Origin: Sedimentisphaerales bacterium
GTDB taxonomy: Bacteria > Planctomycetota > Phycisphaerae > Sedimentisphaerales > SM23-30
DNA length: 64,000 bases
Direction of reading: 5' to 3'
Assembly (NCBI GenBank): GCA_028281535.1
Contig: JANQJS010000049.1
Coordinates: 124,001 to 188,000, forward strand
Below the pieces are notes generated by a model. The model was not told where the DNA came from and searched no databases. It was given only the letters and a program-made list of their open reading frames with translations. Positions 31,597 through 37,844 of the stretch are shown here, piece by piece. Made by a program: the position numbers and the translations under genes. The stretch's first letter is position 1. Each line of letters opens with the position of its first letter.

Positions 31597-31923
31597 TTAA
31601 AGTACTTGTTCAAGCTTTGCTTTAATATCTTTTTTGGATGCCATGCCTGTCATAAAGCTTTTGACTTGGCCATCTTGAAAAACAAGTATCGTTGGCACGC
31701 TGCTGATTTGGTATCGCATGCTGATGTCACGATTGTCCATCGCATTGATTTTTCCAATTTTCACTTTACCATCAAGTTCTGTAGCCAGTTCATCGATGGT
31801 TGGAGCGATTTGCTTACAAGGTCCGCATCCTTCAGACCAGAAGTCAACTAAAACAGGTTCTTTGCTATTGATTACTTCTTCATCAAAGTTTAGTTGATTA
31901 AATTCGCGTGTATGGGTTGACAT
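31597..31923 (-). CDS. Thioredoxin-like protein with G-CGPC active site
   Basis: A 108-residue thioredoxin fold with active site 'SEGCGPCKQ' (C-G-P-C), cis-Pro loop 'ISSVPTILVF' and the usual beta-alpha order. The tryptophan that normally precedes the first cysteine (W-C-G-P-C) is replaced by glycine, so redox potential or partner choice may differ from the neighbour. It lies 19 bases downstream of a canonical thioredoxin on the same strand, clearly an operon formed by tandem duplication. A thioredoxin reductase gene (trxB) occurs at 55 kb. Confidence 0.93.
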   Translation of the reverse strand: MSTHTREFNQLNFDEEVINSKEPVLVDFWSEGCGPCKQIAPTIDELATELDGKVKIGKINAMDNRDISMRYQISSVPTILVFQDGQVKSFMTGMASKKDIKAKLEQVL

Positions 31924-31942
31924 AAATTTCTAAAATCCTTTC

Positions 31943-32269
31943 TTAGAGCACTTCGTCCATGGCGGCTTTAATATCTTTCTTGCTGGATAAGCCGACGAGT
32001 TTTTTGGCAACTTCACCTTTGTTAAATAAAATAATCGTTGGGATCGCACTGATGCCAAAATTCACTGCGGTCTCACGATTGTTGTCTGTATCAAGTTTTC
32101 CAACTTTAACTTTGCCATCATATTCGCTGGCAAGTTCTTCAATGGTTGGATTCATCATGCGGCAGGGGCCACACCATTCTGCCCAAAAATCAACCAGGAC
32201 AGGTTGGTCGCTACTAGCGACTTGTTCTTCAAAGTTAGCATCGGTGATTTCCAGTATATTTTCTGCCAT
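31943..32269 (-). CDS. trxA: Thioredoxin
   Basis: Canonical 108-residue thioredoxin, a general dithiol-disulfide reductant in the cytoplasm. Active site 'WAEWCGPCRMMNPTIEEL', buried Asp in 'VLVDFWAEW', cis-proline 'ISAIPTIILF' and a terminal 'GLSSKKDIKAAMDEVL' helix. AGGAG sits upstream of the ATG (AAGGAGTTTATC-ATG). First gene of a two-thioredoxin operon. Confidence 0.96.
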   Translation of the reverse strand: MAENILEITDANFEEQVASSDQPVLVDFWAEWCGPCRMMNPTIEELASEYDGKVKVGKLDTDNNRETAVNFGISAIPTIILFNKGEVAKKLVGLSSKKDIKAAMDEVL

Positions 32270-32452: not shown

Positions 32453-32920
32453 TTAGGATTGTTTTTCGACAATCATACCCAGTTCAACAGCGGCATTGAG
32501 TGGCAGTTCTGCCAGGCCTAATGCCAGGCGTGTATGTAGGCCGGCATCACCGAAAACCTCTTTGAGAAAATTTGAAGCTCCATTGGCAACAAGTGCCTGA
32601 TCGGTAAATCCCTGACTGCTGTTGACATAGACTTCGATACGAACGATTTGTTTGATATTATCGAGTGTGCCTAAATGCGCTTTAAGTGCGGCAAGGCCAT
32701 TAATTGCACAGAGTTTTGCTGCCTCTTGTGCTTGTTCTGTCGTAACGCTACCATTATCGCCAACTTTATCAGTGTATGTGATTTTACCATCTTTGATGGG
32801 GAGTTGTCCGGACACAAAAATTAAATCTCCTGTTGCAACGGTTGGTACATAGGCACCTGCAGGTGCGGCTGCTTCAGGTAGAGTGATTCCAAGTTCTTGA
32901 AGTTTATTATCGATGCTCAT
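32453..32920 (-). CDS. RidA/YjgF-family protein
   Basis: A 155-residue RidA-superfamily protein of the longer YjgF_endoribonuc-type subfamily ('MSIDNKLQELGITLPEAAAP', 'GDLIFVSGQLPIKDGKI', 'RIEVYVNSSQGFTDQALVAN', 'TRLALGLAELPLNAAVELG'). The arginine in 'HTRLALG' lies where RidA proteins bind the carboxylate of 2-aminoacrylate-type enamines. True RidA deaminates reactive enamines and imines; members of this longer subgroup are less well defined. The ATG overlaps the scpA stop codon (ATGA), so the two genes are translationally coupled. Confidence 0.92.
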   Translation of the reverse strand: MSIDNKLQELGITLPEAAAPAGAYVPTVATGDLIFVSGQLPIKDGKITYTDKVGDNGSVTTEQAQEAAKLCAINGLAALKAHLGTLDNIKQIVRIEVYVNSSQGFTDQALVANGASNFLKEVFGDAGLHTRLALGLAELPLNAAVELGMIVEKQS

Positions 32921-33801
32921 TCGTTTTCCTGTGTTTGGTGTTCTGCTTTAGCTTTTTCTTCTGCCTTTTTATGTTTTTGATCAACGTTTAAGACGCTGGG
33001 CAGTTCGTCGACTTCACTAGAGATCGCATGAGCTACCGCTTGTGCCGCAGGTTCTTCGGTCAATGGTACAATATAGATTTCAGCAAAGGTGGATTCCTGT
33101 TCAATGCGAACCAGTTTTTGTCGCATGAGTTCAAGTAACGCTAAAAACATACCGCCCATTTCACCTTTGGTTTTGCAACCAGCAAACGCTCGTCGAAAAG
33201 TAAGGCCTTTTTCACTTTGCGCGCGATCAAGAATATCTGTTTCGTACAGATCGATCGGTGTGTTGTCTTGAATGACTTCATGTTTGTATTCGCCCGCGAG
33301 TGTTGCCTTCATCAGATTGTTAAAGGCATCAAAGAGATCCCAGATCTGAACGCCTTCCAGATCGTATTCTTGTTCTTCTTGTTTTTCCTCATCAATGAGA
33401 TGCTTTAGGTTTGCCAGACTACGCGGGAATTTGAGCACTTGCTCATCTGCTTTTTCGGCTAGGCTGTTGGAGGCATCTTTATATTTTTTATACTCCAAAA
33501 GCTGGCGGACGAGTTCGAGTCGTGGATCGCCCAGATCTTCTTCTTCCTCATCGCTTTCAGCGGCTTCATGACGAGGCAGGAGCATGGCTGATTTTACTTC
33601 GGTGAGAGCTGCGGCCATGACAAGAAATTCACTGGCATTGTCGATATTGAGTTCTTCAATCATTTCGACATATTCCAGATATTGCTCAGTGATCATCGCA
33701 ACCGGGATATCATGAATATCCACCTCATTGCGGCGAATCAAATAAAGCAACAGGTCCAGCGGCCCACTGTAAATGTCCATTTGTATTTTATAATCTGACA
33801 T
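32917..33801 (-). CDS. scpA: Segregation and condensation protein A
   Basis: Kleisin subunit of the bacterial SMC-ScpAB condensin. The N-terminal domain is typical: 'YKIQMDIYSGPLDLLLYLIR', 'RNEVDIHDIPVAMITEQYLE', 'ASEFLVMAAALTEVKSAMLL'. An acidic linker ('ESDEEEEDLGDP') and a C-terminal winged-helix segment around 'FLALLELMRQKLVRIEQEST' follow. An unusual charged tail (about 270-294) extends the usual length. I chose the second ATG (33801) because AAGAG lies about 7 bases before it; the first ATG (33807) is also possible. A decayed copy of the first 130 bases lies at 34492-34621. scpB is not in the window. Confidence 0.93.
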   Translation of the reverse strand: MSDYKIQMDIYSGPLDLLLYLIRRNEVDIHDIPVAMITEQYLEYVEMIEELNIDNASEFLVMAAALTEVKSAMLLPRHEAAESDEEEEDLGDPRLELVRQLLEYKKYKDASNSLAEKADEQVLKFPRSLANLKHLIDEEKQEEQEYDLEGVQIWDLFDAFNNLMKATLAGEYKHEVIQDNTPIDLYETDILDRAQSEKGLTFRRAFAGCKTKGEMGGMFLALLELMRQKLVRIEQESTFAEIYIVPLTEEPAAQAVAHAISSEVDELPSVLNVDQKHKKAEEKAKAEHQTQENE

Positions 33802-34000
33802 AGGCATACTCTTTAAAATGTGGGCTTATCTTAGCTCATTTGAACCATGAATTCCAGTAAAGATTGAAAAAAGTATGAAATGAGTGAGTAGGGCTGTAAT
33901 CCATACTAGAAATTGAAAAATATTGGGAACATTAAAATTATTTTCCAATCTAATATTTAAGGTTATGCAGAAAAAACATCATATTAAGGTAGATAGAAAA

Positions 34001-34513
34001 ATGAGAAAAACTCTATTTTTGATTGGGATATCATTGTTGTTAATTGTTTCTACGCAAGCAAAAGTGATGAGTACTGAAGGTGATTCAGAATTACACTTGC
34101 TTGAGAGTCGTTTAAATACATTGCTAAATAGGGCAGGGATACAACCTGAAATTGAACATTGTGAAAAAACTAATAAAGTAACAATTCGATTTGAAACCAG
34201 GCAGTACATCATTCATAGAAATTCAATGGCAGGTGGTTTTAGTCGCGAAGCTTATATTAAGGAAGGGCCTTCATGGCGAGGGGTCTTGCTAACTGCCCAG
34301 CTTCATGAGAAAGGACAAAGTTATCAAGCTCTTATGCCGCAAACACTAACTCGGCCTTATTGGAAAACCTATTTCGATTTGACAGAGCTACCAAATCACA
34401 ACAAAAATTTATATTGGAGTTTGTCATATGGTTCTCAGTTTAGTCAGCCTGTAAGAATGCAGATTATAGATGTCTTAAGAGGTGTGCAGGATATTCCAGA
34501 TTCTGCTCAGTGA
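34001..34513 (+). CDS. Secreted protein of unknown function
   Basis: A 170-residue protein beginning with a signal peptide ('RKTLFLIGISLLLIVSTQA'). The mature part is mixed alpha/beta with 'VTIRFETRQYIIH' and 'YWKTYFDLTELPNH'; no family was recognised. The open frame extends upstream to a TTG at 33923, but the signal peptide and AAGG upstream favour the ATG at 34001. The last codons and the stop codon lie inside a decayed copy of the scpA 5' end read in antisense, so its C-terminus ('IPDSAQ') derives from that remnant. It is an accessory gene inserted next to scpA. Confidence 0.65.
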   Translation: MRKTLFLIGISLLLIVSTQAKVMSTEGDSELHLLESRLNTLLNRAGIQPEIEHCEKTNKVTIRFETRQYIIHRNSMAGGFSREAYIKEGPSWRGVLLTAQLHEKGQSYQALMPQTLTRPYWKTYFDLTELPNHNKNLYWSLSYGSQFSQPVRMQIIDVLRGVQDIPDSAQ

Positions 34514-34621
34514 TCATCGTAAGCTGAATATCATAGGTGTCCACTCATTGCGGCGAATCAAATAAAGCCACAAGTCTAGTTGCCCGCTGTAAATGTCCAT
34601 TAGAATTATGTCATCTGACAT
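34492..34621 (-). pseudogene. Decayed duplicate of the scpA 5' end
   Basis: Aligns to 33671-33801 (start of scpA) in the same orientation, about 83% identical by eye, with one single-base deletion (CCACCTCATT to CCACTCATT). It keeps the scpA start codon and reads MSDDIILMDIYSGQLDLWLY, then shifts frame after 'LIRRNE' and stops at once. No ribosome-binding site or downstream part remains. It overlaps the end of the plus-strand gene at 34001. Confidence 0.85.
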
Positions 34622-34875
34622 TGTTTATCTCTGAATAATGTTTAATGACTGATGAATAATCATAAAGGGACATTTTGTTTGTTATTACAATATTGCTAGG
34701 AAATTCAACATATTTTCGAATGATTGCCAGATGTCAAAATTAGACTTGATTAATTCATTTAAATGCAATAGACTAGATCTAGTCGATTTTGGTCAGGTAA
34801 TTTAATTAGTTTAAAATCACATAGAGACAACAGGGTGTTTATTTTTTAGGCAAATTTGTTTTAGGAGGTTGAGCT

Positions 34876-35379
34876 ATGAAATTTACTAACTGTCTATTGG
34901 GAATCCTTTTTTGTGTTTTAGTTTTTTCTACCACAGATCTATTGGCTGGAATTGATAATGTTGTCATTGATCCAGTAAATCCAACTTTTTTAGATGATAT
35001 TGATATCGTTACATTCGGTACCGAGAATAGTGGGGGTGTTATCATTACGAATTCAATGTTGAATTTTGAAGGTAATAACATCTTTTTGGATCTTGAATTA
35101 CAAGTAGGTAATCTATTTTTGATCACACCATGGGATCACACAGAAAACATAGGCCCATTGCCTGTGGGGAACTACAATTTGATCGTTTCAACGGGGTTAG
35201 GTTATCCTTTGCCATTACCATTGCCTTTGCCAATACCGCAAGGACAGCAAGGAACGTTTCCAGGTGGGAGTTATTATCAAACCTCTTTCGAGGTGATTCC
35301 TGAACCCGTCACTTCGATGCTTTTGTTGACTGGAGTTGGCTTAGTTGTTAAGCGTCGTCAGGCTAGAGTTAAATGTTAG
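34876..35379 (+). CDS. PEP-CTERM sorted secreted protein
   Basis: A 167-residue exported protein: N-terminal signal peptide ('LLGILFCVLVFSTTDLLAG'), a small beta-rich body, a proline-leucine stretch (PLPLPLPLPIP) and a C-terminal PEP-CTERM signal with 'VIPEP', a hydrophobic helix 'TSMLLLTGVGLVV' and a basic end 'KRRQARVKC'. PEP-CTERM proteins are cut and anchored or released by an exosortase, usually encoded in an exopolysaccharide locus such as the one at the left edge of the window. AGGAGG lies 7 bases before the ATG. It lies between remnants of scpA and trpS. Confidence 0.88.
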   Translation: MKFTNCLLGILFCVLVFSTTDLLAGIDNVVIDPVNPTFLDDIDIVTFGTENSGGVIITNSMLNFEGNNIFLDLELQVGNLFLITPWDHTENIGPLPVGNYNLIVSTGLGYPLPLPLPLPIPQGQQGTFPGGSYYQTSFEVIPEPVTSMLLLTGVGLVVKRRQARVKC

Positions 35380-35383
35380 ACGC

Positions 35384-35517
35384 TATGATATCTGCTTCGG
35401 ATCAATCTATTGTCTAGGATTGTTGAACTTTTGGGCAAGCTTTTTATCGTCTTATGCAGGGACTGTTCTGCGGTGTCAGTGTCTTTTTCGAATTCGGTGA
35501 TATTGTTGGGAAGGATC
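35384..35517 (-). pseudogene. Decayed duplicate of the trpS 3' end
   Basis: Aligns to 36879-37016 (last 138 bases of trpS) in the same orientation. The best block is 42 ungapped bases with about 76% identity, corresponding to 'FAELEKDPDTVEDIL' in TrpS and 'ITEFEKDTDTAEQSL' here. Further matches run to the trpS end with small gaps (AAAAAGCT-x-GC, TCCG-AAGC, TAT-x-AT). Frameshifts prevent a usable reading. It lies between the PEP-CTERM gene and the HAF-repeat gene. Confidence 0.65.
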
Positions 35518-35530
35518 GAGTCTCTGCGCT

Positions 35531-36607
35531 CTAGTTTAGTGTCGATAGCCAAAATTGACTAAAGATTTCAAAAGACTCTGGTGTTGTATTAATTAATATA
35601 GCAAAATCTATCATATTGATGATATTGTCATTGTTATAGTCAAATGAATCAATAATCGGTTTCAGAAGGAAAGCTTCATTATGTCCAGAAGGATTGGTGC
35701 CATAGCCTGCTATCCAGCCATTGTCATTAATTCCCCTGGCGACCTCCAGTGTCCATCCGTTGCCGCTATCGTCAACTAAATCGTTCAAATCTCTCATGCC
35801 ATGCGTAGCGTCCCAAAGAAATGCGGTATTATTAATAACTGAAATAGTACTCCTGCCAACGACCTGGCCATGGATATTTAGGCTGTAAGCGATACTGGTA
35901 CTTGATGGGGATTCGATCAATACACCTAAATTCGTCAGGCCATCGTTCGGGTCCCAAAAAAAAGCTCTATCGTTAGTCTTATTGCCAGTAATTTGCCCAT
36001 GATTATTAATATCATATGCTTTGCCGATATTGGGAGCAAAGGTTGAAATTCCATCTATTGGATCATATAGAAAACCAAGTGAACCGGTAATTTGCCCTAG
36101 ATCATTGATGGCAAATGCAACTGACTGAGGTGAACCGCCAGGCAGGTCTGCGATATTTATTTTGCCATTCGTTGCATCCCAGCGAAACGCACTTGTGCCG
36201 CCAACAATTTGGCTATTATTGTTGATAGCCATGCCAATGCCCAATCCCAAATCTGTCATCGTACCCGATTCCCAAATAAAAAAGTGTGGTCCGTTACTTG
36301 TGCTGCTTAAACCGCAAACCTGTCCAAGGTCATTAATTCCCAAAGCACTACTAATATTTGGACCGCTTGGGATATCGCCCAGATCTGTCATCTCGCCAGA
36401 ATCCCAAATAAAAGCGTGTTTGTCGCTGCCGGTTATACTGCTTACTCCAACAACTTGTCCGTGGTTATTGATATTATGCGCACTGCTACTGAACGGCCCG
36501 CCTGGCAAGTCGCCAAGTGCAGTAAGAGTGTAGAGTGGTTGCGAATAAGCATGATAACACGGCACCCATAGGGCGTAGGCGAAAATAAATAATGCTAATT
36601 TTTTCAT
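35531..36607 (-). CDS. Secreted HAF-repeat protein with dockerin-like end
   Basis: A 358-residue secreted protein: signal peptide ('LALFIFAYALWVPCYHAYS'), then about seven HAF-type repeats of roughly 42 residues ('INNHGQVVG', 'AFIWDSGEMTDLGDIP', 'INDLGQVCG', 'INNNSQIVG', 'AFLWDATHGMRDLNDLV'). These form a propeller-like array of unknown function. A dockerin-like tail ends it ('DYNNDNIINMIDFAILI...FSQFWLSTLN'). The longest ORF uses a GTG at 36616; AGGGTG sits 7 bases before the ATG at 36607, so I chose the latter. It lies between trpS and the trpS remnant, so it entered this locus as an insertion. Confidence 0.85.
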   Translation of the reverse strand: MKKLALFIFAYALWVPCYHAYSQPLYTLTALGDLPGGPFSSSAHNINNHGQVVGVSSITGSDKHAFIWDSGEMTDLGDIPSGPNISSALGINDLGQVCGLSSTSNGPHFFIWESGTMTDLGLGIGMAINNNSQIVGGTSAFRWDATNGKINIADLPGGSPQSVAFAINDLGQITGSLGFLYDPIDGISTFAPNIGKAYDINNHGQITGNKTNDRAFFWDPNDGLTNLGVLIESPSSTSIAYSLNIHGQVVGRSTISVINNTAFLWDATHGMRDLNDLVDDSGNGWTLEVARGINDNGWIAGYGTNPSGHNEAFLLKPIIDSFDYNNDNIINMIDFAILINTTPESFEIFSQFWLSTLN

Positions 36608-36866
36608 AATATTCACCCTGATGATTTTTGTGTCAATTATTGAAATGTTATATCTGCACCGATGCGCAACACATACTAGTTAATAATTTAGATATATTGG
36701 GATTTATTCCGAGTGTCTCTTCAACTAAAACTAATATACTAAGGCTCTGAGTTTTATGCAAGTGATATTTGCTTTAATTCTGGGTAGAGAATAAGTGGAA
36801 GCATTTATGCATATTTAAAGATTCAGGCAATTTGCTATTATAAAGTTAGAGGGTGTTTTGGGTGGT

Positions 36867-37844
36867 TTAGTAGTTGGTCATAATACCTGTTGCTTTGCGG
36901 ACGATTTCCATCGTTTCTTGAGCGGTTGTGCGAGCTTTTTTGCCACCTTCGCGTAGGATGTCTTCTACGGTGTCTGGATCTTTTTCCAATTCGGCGAATT
37001 TATCACGGAATGGATCTAGCAGTTCGTTGACTAATTCGACAAGGCGTTTTTTTACGTCGCCATATCCCATGCCTCCTTGGGTGTAGCGATCACGCCAGTT
37101 GTTTTGTTCTTCTTTGGTGGCTAATAATTTTATGAGAGCAAAGACGCGGCAGGTGTCTGGATCTTTGGGGTCTTCCATGGGCGTCGAATCGGTTTCGATT
37201 CGCATGATCTTTTTCTTTGTTTGATTTTTCGGTGTAAAAAGTTCGATGGTGTTATCATAACTTTTACTCATCTTCTGGCCATCAAGTCCTGGGACAACAG
37301 CGACATCTGAGATGATATAAGGTTCGGGAACAACTAAAAGGTCCTCACCAAAGATATTGTTAAATTTAATGGCAATGTCGCGGGTTACTTCCAAGTGTTG
37401 TTTTTGATCCTGACCGACTGGCACAAGGTTGCTTTGATAGATGATGATATCTGCGGCTTGTAATACGGGGTAAGCAAAGAGGCCATGGTTTGCACTGATA
37501 CCTTGTGCGACTTTGTCTTTGTAGCTTACGCAGCGCTCTAGTAATCCCATGGGGGTAATGCAGGAGAATATCCAGGCGAGTTCACAAACTTCGGGGACAT
37601 CCGAATGTCGAAAGAAAACACTTTTTGTTGGATCGATACCTACAGCTAGATAACCAATGGCAATTTCACGCGTATAATCTTCTAGGGTTTTTCGATCGTT
37701 AACGGTTGTTAACGCATGGTAGTTGGCAATAAAGTAGTAGCAATCGTTGCCTTTACTTTGCAATTCTAGGTATTGTTGCATCGCGCCAAAGTAATTGCCT
37801 AGATGAAGTTTGCCTGATGGCTGTATGCCGGATAGTACGCGCAT
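36867..37844 (-). CDS. trpS: Tryptophanyl-tRNA synthetase
   Basis: Class I aminoacyl-tRNA synthetase that charges tRNA-Trp. Full length (325). The HIGH-type motif is 'PSGKLHLGNYFGAM' (H14-LGN) and KMSKS lies at 191-195 ('GLDGQKMSKSYDNTI'). The tryptophan pocket region 'YPVLQAADIIIYQ' and 'VPVGQDQKQHLEVTRDIA' are typical. It lies on the minus strand with no Trp-regulated leader visible. The HAF-repeat gene and a decayed copy of its own 3' end follow downstream. Confidence 0.97.
   Translation of the reverse strand: MRVLSGIQPSGKLHLGNYFGAMQQYLELQSKGNDCYYFIANYHALTTVNDRKTLEDYTREIAIGYLAVGIDPTKSVFFRHSDVPEVCELAWIFSCITPMGLLERCVSYKDKVAQGISANHGLFAYPVLQAADIIIYQSNLVPVGQDQKQHLEVTRDIAIKFNNIFGEDLLVVPEPYIISDVAVVPGLDGQKMSKSYDNTIELFTPKNQTKKKIMRIETDSTPMEDPKDPDTCRVFALIKLLATKEEQNNWRDRYTQGGMGYGDVKKRLVELVNELLDPFRDKFAELEKDPDTVEDILREGGKKARTTAQETMEIVRKATGIMTNY

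Follow-up and report, generated by a model that had tools for sequence, protein, structure and literature searches.

The window analyzed here is a 64,000-nucleotide stretch of contig JANQJS010000049.1 of a Sedimentisphaerales bacterium, in which the conserved neighbors trpS and scpA are separated by a gap of ~3 kb that holds three genes (Table 1). The interval runs, left to right, through scpA, ORF1, a copy of an scpA end, ORF2, a copy of a trpS end, ORF3, and trpS.

Table 1 Features of the trpS-scpA interval, with positions counted from the first base of the window
Feature	Coordinates	Strand	Evidence
scpA, intact	32917..33807	-	SMC_ScpA, E 1.3e-43; match in 38 of 40 genomes, its own included
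D1, intact copy of the scpA 5' end, codons 3-46	33670..33801	-	Local alignment
ORF1, candidate inserted gene, 170 aa, signal-peptide-like start (by eye)	34001..34513	+	Homologs; last six codons and stop inside D1'
D1', decayed copy of the scpA 5' end, one base deleted, weakly to 34641	34491..34621	-	Alignment, genome search, polarized changes
TGA stop of ORF1, from antisense scpA	34511..34513	+	Read from sequence
ORF2, PEP-CTERM protein, between both remnants	34876..35379	+	TIGR02595, 16.9 bits (cutoff 16)
D2', decayed copy of the trpS 3' end, perhaps to ~35375 (weak)	35420..35521	-	Alignment
ORF3, HAF-repeat protein, dockerin-like tail	35531..36616	-	TIGR02913, E 6e-39
trpS, intact	36867..37844	-	TIGR00233, 314 bits
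D2, intact copy within the trpS 3' end	36915..37020	-	Alignment

ORF1, which starts with an ATG at 34001, has no Pfam or NCBIfam match, and its single-sequence structure model, with a mean pLDDT of 45.9, was set aside. Matches to ORF2 were found in 4 of 40 genomes, its own included. The tail of ORF3 reaches 18.8 bits against Dockerin_1, under the cutoff of 22.9, and ORF3 has 60 match stretches in its own genome, itself counted. Searches of Pfam and NCBIfam placed none of the three ORFs in a transposase or site-specific recombinase family, and no plasmid or viral source of ORF1 was found. Seven inverted pairs lie between 33600 and 37100, none of them at both ends of one insert as placed here. 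A 12-bp perfect inverted pair (33744-33755 and 36885-36896), in the duplicated scpA end and the trpS 3' end, could be due to chance. Two adjoining thioredoxin genes at 31597-32269 are ~70% similar over 165 bp.

The duplicated scpA end and the stop codon of ORF1

Local alignment of D1 with D1' gives 83.3% identity over 132 columns with one 1-base gap and a score of 152, against a best score of 32 among 1,000 dinucleotide shuffles. D1' has the orientation of scpA, lies 821 bp from D1 start to start, and shares an identical run of 25 bases with the scpA 5' end. In a search of its own genome, D1' matches scpA at E 9e-33, with two matching places in all; D1' also yields a 26-residue ScpA match (E 3.3e-4), and the weak extension of the alignment continues past the scpA start for ~20 bp on its upstream side. 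The first-pass annotation had described, by eye, a copy of about 130 bases of the start of scpA with about 83% identity and one deletion, some 0.8 kb away in the same orientation, and had proposed a pairwise alignment with a significance test. The alignment bears out this description at a score far above shuffle level and corrects the start of the copy by one base, from 34492 to 34491.

ORF1 ends within D1', as that annotation had also noted. Its last six codons (Ile-Pro-Asp-Ser-Ala-Gln) and its stop are antisense scpA, and intact scpA carries the identical antisense TGA, so the stop of ORF1 was most likely already present at the time of copying. Matches to ORF1 were found in 4 of 397 class genomes, namely its own, two with credible homologs (35% identity over residues 1-162 and 29% over residues 4-156), and a third match (G023) that was dropped as chance because a stop interrupts it and it runs antisense inside an open frame of 325 codons. 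Both credible homologs stop within ~4 codons of the junction; the original ORF1 stop has therefore probably been lost and replaced by the antisense scpA stop. With the homologs ending near the junction and the stop lying in the copy, the earlier claim of a gene end formed from scpA coding DNA is supported. Most likely, then, ORF1 is a gained gene whose own stop was lost and replaced with one from the antisense strand of scpA.

The trpS remnant

The decayed trpS 3' end at D2' is an addition to the first-pass annotation, as is the recurrence of the pattern elsewhere in the genome. D2' scores 33 against the trpS of its own genome (500 letter shuffles: mean, 12.3; SD, 1.5; maximum, 18) and 7 to 12 against the trpS of 12 relatives. 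The stop of ORF3 lies ~10 bp from D2', and that of ORF2 may coincide with the outer boundary of D2', though only a lenient alignment places it there. The duplications at trpS-scpA, of ~100 bp or more, are unlike the short target duplication of transposons. Source copies elsewhere in the genome were rejected, because a search with the 3.1-kb interval (E 0.01) returned, besides itself, no more than the end of scpA and a match of 101 bp within the HAF-repeat gene.

Origin and decay of the copies

D1' is 84% identical to its own scpA and 57 to 67% identical to the scpA of eight family members, to which its own scpA is 67 to 76% identical. Polarized by these eight, 16 of the 21 scpA differences fall in the copy, 3 fall in scpA, and 2 are undecided, with the copy changes spread 5/5/6 over the three codon positions. 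For trpS, there are 29 differences, 21 in the copy (10/5/6 by codon position), 6 in trpS, and 2 undecided. Judged by these comparisons, both remnants are own-lineage copies that evolve without coding constraint. Import of the scpA piece from another species was rejected because the copy is nearest to its own scpA and its changes are even over codon positions.

When the scpA differences are left unpolarized, 11 of 26 are synonymous, against 23% expected if unconstrained (P = 0.03), an excess that fits with intact scpA accumulating synonymous changes of its own. Codon 32 still encodes Tyr in the copy, as in five of the eight family members, and intact scpA now has His. The trpS remnant looks older than the scpA remnant, as the trpS pair differs at 29 of 101 sites (29%) and the scpA pair at 21 of 131 (16%; P = 0.02); copy-specific changes show no clear difference between the two remnants (P = 0.10).

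The trpS-scpA neighborhood in relatives

The distance between trpS and scpA is at most ~275 bp, or the two overlap, in all eight family genomes that could be assessed, which is too close to hold ORF1. Ten family regions had been fetched, and two were set aside, with scpA at a contig edge or no trpS within 8.5 kb upstream. The two genes are equally close in 9 of 10 order-level regions and in 8 of 8 planctomycete loci, three further loci of other phyla having been left out. The family and order-level regions together represent 20 of the 37 relatives in which ScpA was matched, and the relatives belong to other genera. No match to ORF1 turned up in the 12 family genomes searched. No end copy of this type was listed in the same relative regions: a scan of 388 kb (28 loci, 564 tests, threshold of 20, which two inverted controls reached) listed three matches, none of which was judged from the listing to be a gene end, a cargo gene, and a copy of the end. 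Separately, according to the listing, a large ORF in a named Phycisphaerae metagenome-assembled genome (L066, 9341-12820) has its final 110 bp repeated nearly exactly ~140 bp downstream.

The own-lineage copy and the joined trpS-scpA of the relatives back the earlier proposal of a duplication or insertion event at scpA. A joint gain of ORF1 and the copy, which had likewise been suggested, is consistent with both being absent where they were looked for among family relatives; that they arrived simultaneously we infer.

Genome-wide scan of gene ends

The scan covered 1,522,452 bases (34% of the genome) with 1,010 mechanically called ORFs of at least 120 aa and comprised 2,003 tests, each comparing the outer 150 nt of a gene end with the 4 kb beyond the gene and using the reversed flank as the control. 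It reaches gene ends alone, so internal remnants would escape it. Sixty-two tests scored at least 21, and the inverted controls reached a maximum of 20. Among these end matches, 43 fall in nearby paralogous ORFs and 19 are nonparalogous. Five of the 19 were accepted, by eye and with the architecture in view, as cases in which a cargo gene stands between a gene end and a copy of that end; two of them are those at trpS-scpA and three are new. They represent three regions, with two cases at trpS-scpA, two on contig C29 less than 6 kb apart, and one on contig C2. The cargo points toward the cut-off copy in each of the five, and its stop lies at most 28 bp from the inner edge of the copy, which is a descriptive statement about cases selected by eye; for scale, the next ORF begins or ends at most 28 bp from the stop in ~33% of the 988 sampled ORFs.

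Fourteen of the 19 nonparalogous matches were rejected, nine without going beyond the listing (C1 5558, C24 2252, C23 42991, C9 173876, C9 177893, and C2 133991, 197287, 208651, and 212240). Alignments disposed of the remainder: C1 3688 and C24 8255 were judged to be frames within repetitive coding DNA, C6 138 is a tail-motif repeat without a gene between, C23 43820 reflects adjoining related PEP-CTERM-like genes, and C23 153533 misses a full gene between. At C6 3786-3986 (L089), the 58-bp gene tail coding FSDGFESGDTAAWN repeats at 48 of 58 bases ~85 bp downstream.

On C2, an MBL-fold gene and a 62-column copy of its 3' end flank a lipoprotein-like gene that begins 5 bp past the host stop and whose TAA consists of one insert base and two copy bases. 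Homologs of this cargo gene terminate a few residues short of its present end, so its stop, too, seems to have been rebuilt at the junction. This gene occurs in 4 of 298 class genomes, including its own, one of them within the family, where it lies on a different contig from the MBL gene; it was not found next to the MBL gene at nine loci of eight relatives. On C29, an FAD oxidoreductase gene, without a credible match in relatives, has a 77-column copy with an unrelated 184-aa gene between, which is found in 9 of 298 class genomes, including its own, the other eight being outside the order. Neither the 184-aa gene nor the lipoprotein-like gene has a Pfam match. Within 6 kb of the FAD case, a CobW gene has a 583-bp decayed copy of its 3' part (463 of 584 columns identical), the gene, its cargo, and the copy together spanning C29 21198-24390 (L177 1198-4390). 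Its cargo, CobW_b, is a CobW paralog with its stop 8 bp from the copy. The GC content of CobW_b (52.5% versus 40.3% in the sample) suggests a foreign origin, and because CobW_b is paralogous to its host, homologous recombination could be the explanation there.

Discussion

We favor, at a probability of about 60%, the reading that accessory genes have been inserted at gene ends with a long duplication of the target end. Insertion of an accessory gene at the end of another gene would duplicate ~60 to 580 bp of that end, of which one copy would stay on the gene body, leaving the gene intact, and the other would lie beyond the insert and decay. At trpS-scpA, both edges would have been hit, by ORF1 at the scpA 5' end and by ORF3 at the trpS 3' end, with ORF2 between. 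The 3' end of the insert would fall at or just ahead of the cargo stop codon, and for that reason the cargo end can be duplicated DNA, as for ORF1 and the C2 lipoprotein-like gene. Insertion and duplication presumably took place in a single step, possibly by repair of a widely staggered break or by template switching. Two results agree with this reading: the cargo lies between long direct target repeats in all five cases, and the joined, cargo-free site is found in every assessable family genome at trpS-scpA.

The remnants at trpS-scpA stand in the ancestral order, and their truncated edges meet the 3' ends of ORF1 and ORF3. The same picture would result if a sister chromosome or a second haplotype had supplied a piece of the former trpS-scpA junction that was inserted between resident, convergent ORF1 and ORF3 in one event, and the copy-specific changes leave an equal age of the two remnants unrejected. 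We nevertheless consider this unlikely, since it requires an earlier haplotype in which ORF1 and ORF3 already lay between trpS and scpA; C2 and C29 have one copy by one cargo gene, so there is no general need for such an event. Whole-gene tandem duplication of trpS and scpA, with unrelated genes later replacing most of the redundant copies, draws on the abundance of nearby paralogs among the end matches and on the CobW case, with its long remnant and paralogous cargo. The recognizable stretches, however, amount to only ~130 bp for scpA and ~100 bp for trpS, and the gene bodies, compared with the intervals, never exceed the top score of 100 shuffles; the comparison of trpS with 34622-35374 comes closest, with a score of 18 (shuffle mean, 13; maximum, 19). 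As it also demands duplication, deletion, and insertion every time with identical edge geometry, we regard it as decidedly improbable. A single tandem duplication of the trpS-scpA pair was rejected by reasoning, because the remnant order would be wrong unless the pair had been triplicated.

The 3' region of the ORF1 mRNA could also pair with the start of the scpA mRNA, D1' being retained as an antisense regulator. The predicted duplex has an energy of -187.7 kcal/mol (50 shuffles: mean, -63.3; lowest, -77.8) and includes the 25-base identical run, but any recent copy gives high complementarity, and the changes lie mostly in the copy and are spread over the codon positions as if unconstrained; retention for this role is very doubtful. 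That the assembly consists of 67 contigs invites the question of an artifact, to which, together with chance similarity, we assign a negligible probability, since D1' and D2' score far beyond their shuffles and the two copy pairs, with differences at 16% and 29% of the sites aligned, do not each represent a single sequence duplicated by the assembly.

Our preferred reading, insertion with long target duplication, has precedent. It was named from the comparison of two Helicobacter pylori genomes (Nobusato et al. 2000, Gene 259:99-108; cited in PMC1643837, PMC2749054, PMC3154945, PMC3031569, PMC4978471), in which, according to the citing papers, the target duplications are long and variable (PMC3031569), the cargo is often a restriction-modification gene, and the pattern is a polymorphism between two strains (PMC1643837). 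The cases described here resemble that system, as portrayed there, in having a gene between long direct repeats of target sequence. They differ in carrying genes of other kinds as cargo, in having old copies, in that gene ends were the targets tested, and in cargo stops that are partly target DNA. Restriction-modification cargo, frequent and not defining in H. pylori, was seen in none of the five cases by Pfam and NCBIfam.

Transposed genes in Arabidopsis, as presented in the relevant part of PMC2869330, likewise have gene-like direct repeats alongside; there the setting is a plant genome, ectopic recombination was considered, and the parental site is known for some genes. The altered end of ORF1 is also comparable to the recent de novo protein C termini of PMC4494051, where an end is extended from sequence formerly noncoding for that protein; here, by contrast, a duplication placed antisense coding DNA next to the gene, and this forms the new end. 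Within the literature collection searched, no paper was found on the planctomycete trpS/scpA or on comparable planctomycete insertions; judged by title and opening lines, 14 of 19 papers from a further search deal with H. pylori or with restriction-modification and methylation. Long target duplication is known, and what is new here is the other cargo, the gene-end targets, and the partial rebuilding of cargo ends out of target DNA.

More tentatively, and well short of an even chance, a recurrent process may act at host gene ends in this planctomycete lineage, whereby the end is duplicated, a newcomer is joined at its stop codon and so points at the severed copy, and the C terminus and stop are sometimes host DNA. 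Gene gain without a visible mobile element usually goes unexplained. If the proposed process is real, five cases, from three regions within a third of the genome, suggest that it could rank among the main routes by which accessory genes are gained here, with no transposase or integrase in the insert. Decayed gene-end copies would then be scars that mark the edge and the relative age of an insertion and can be searched for genome-wide. At trpS-scpA, a conserved pair has been split with both genes still intact, and the C terminus and stop codon of a protein can derive from the antisense strand of a conserved neighbor gene.
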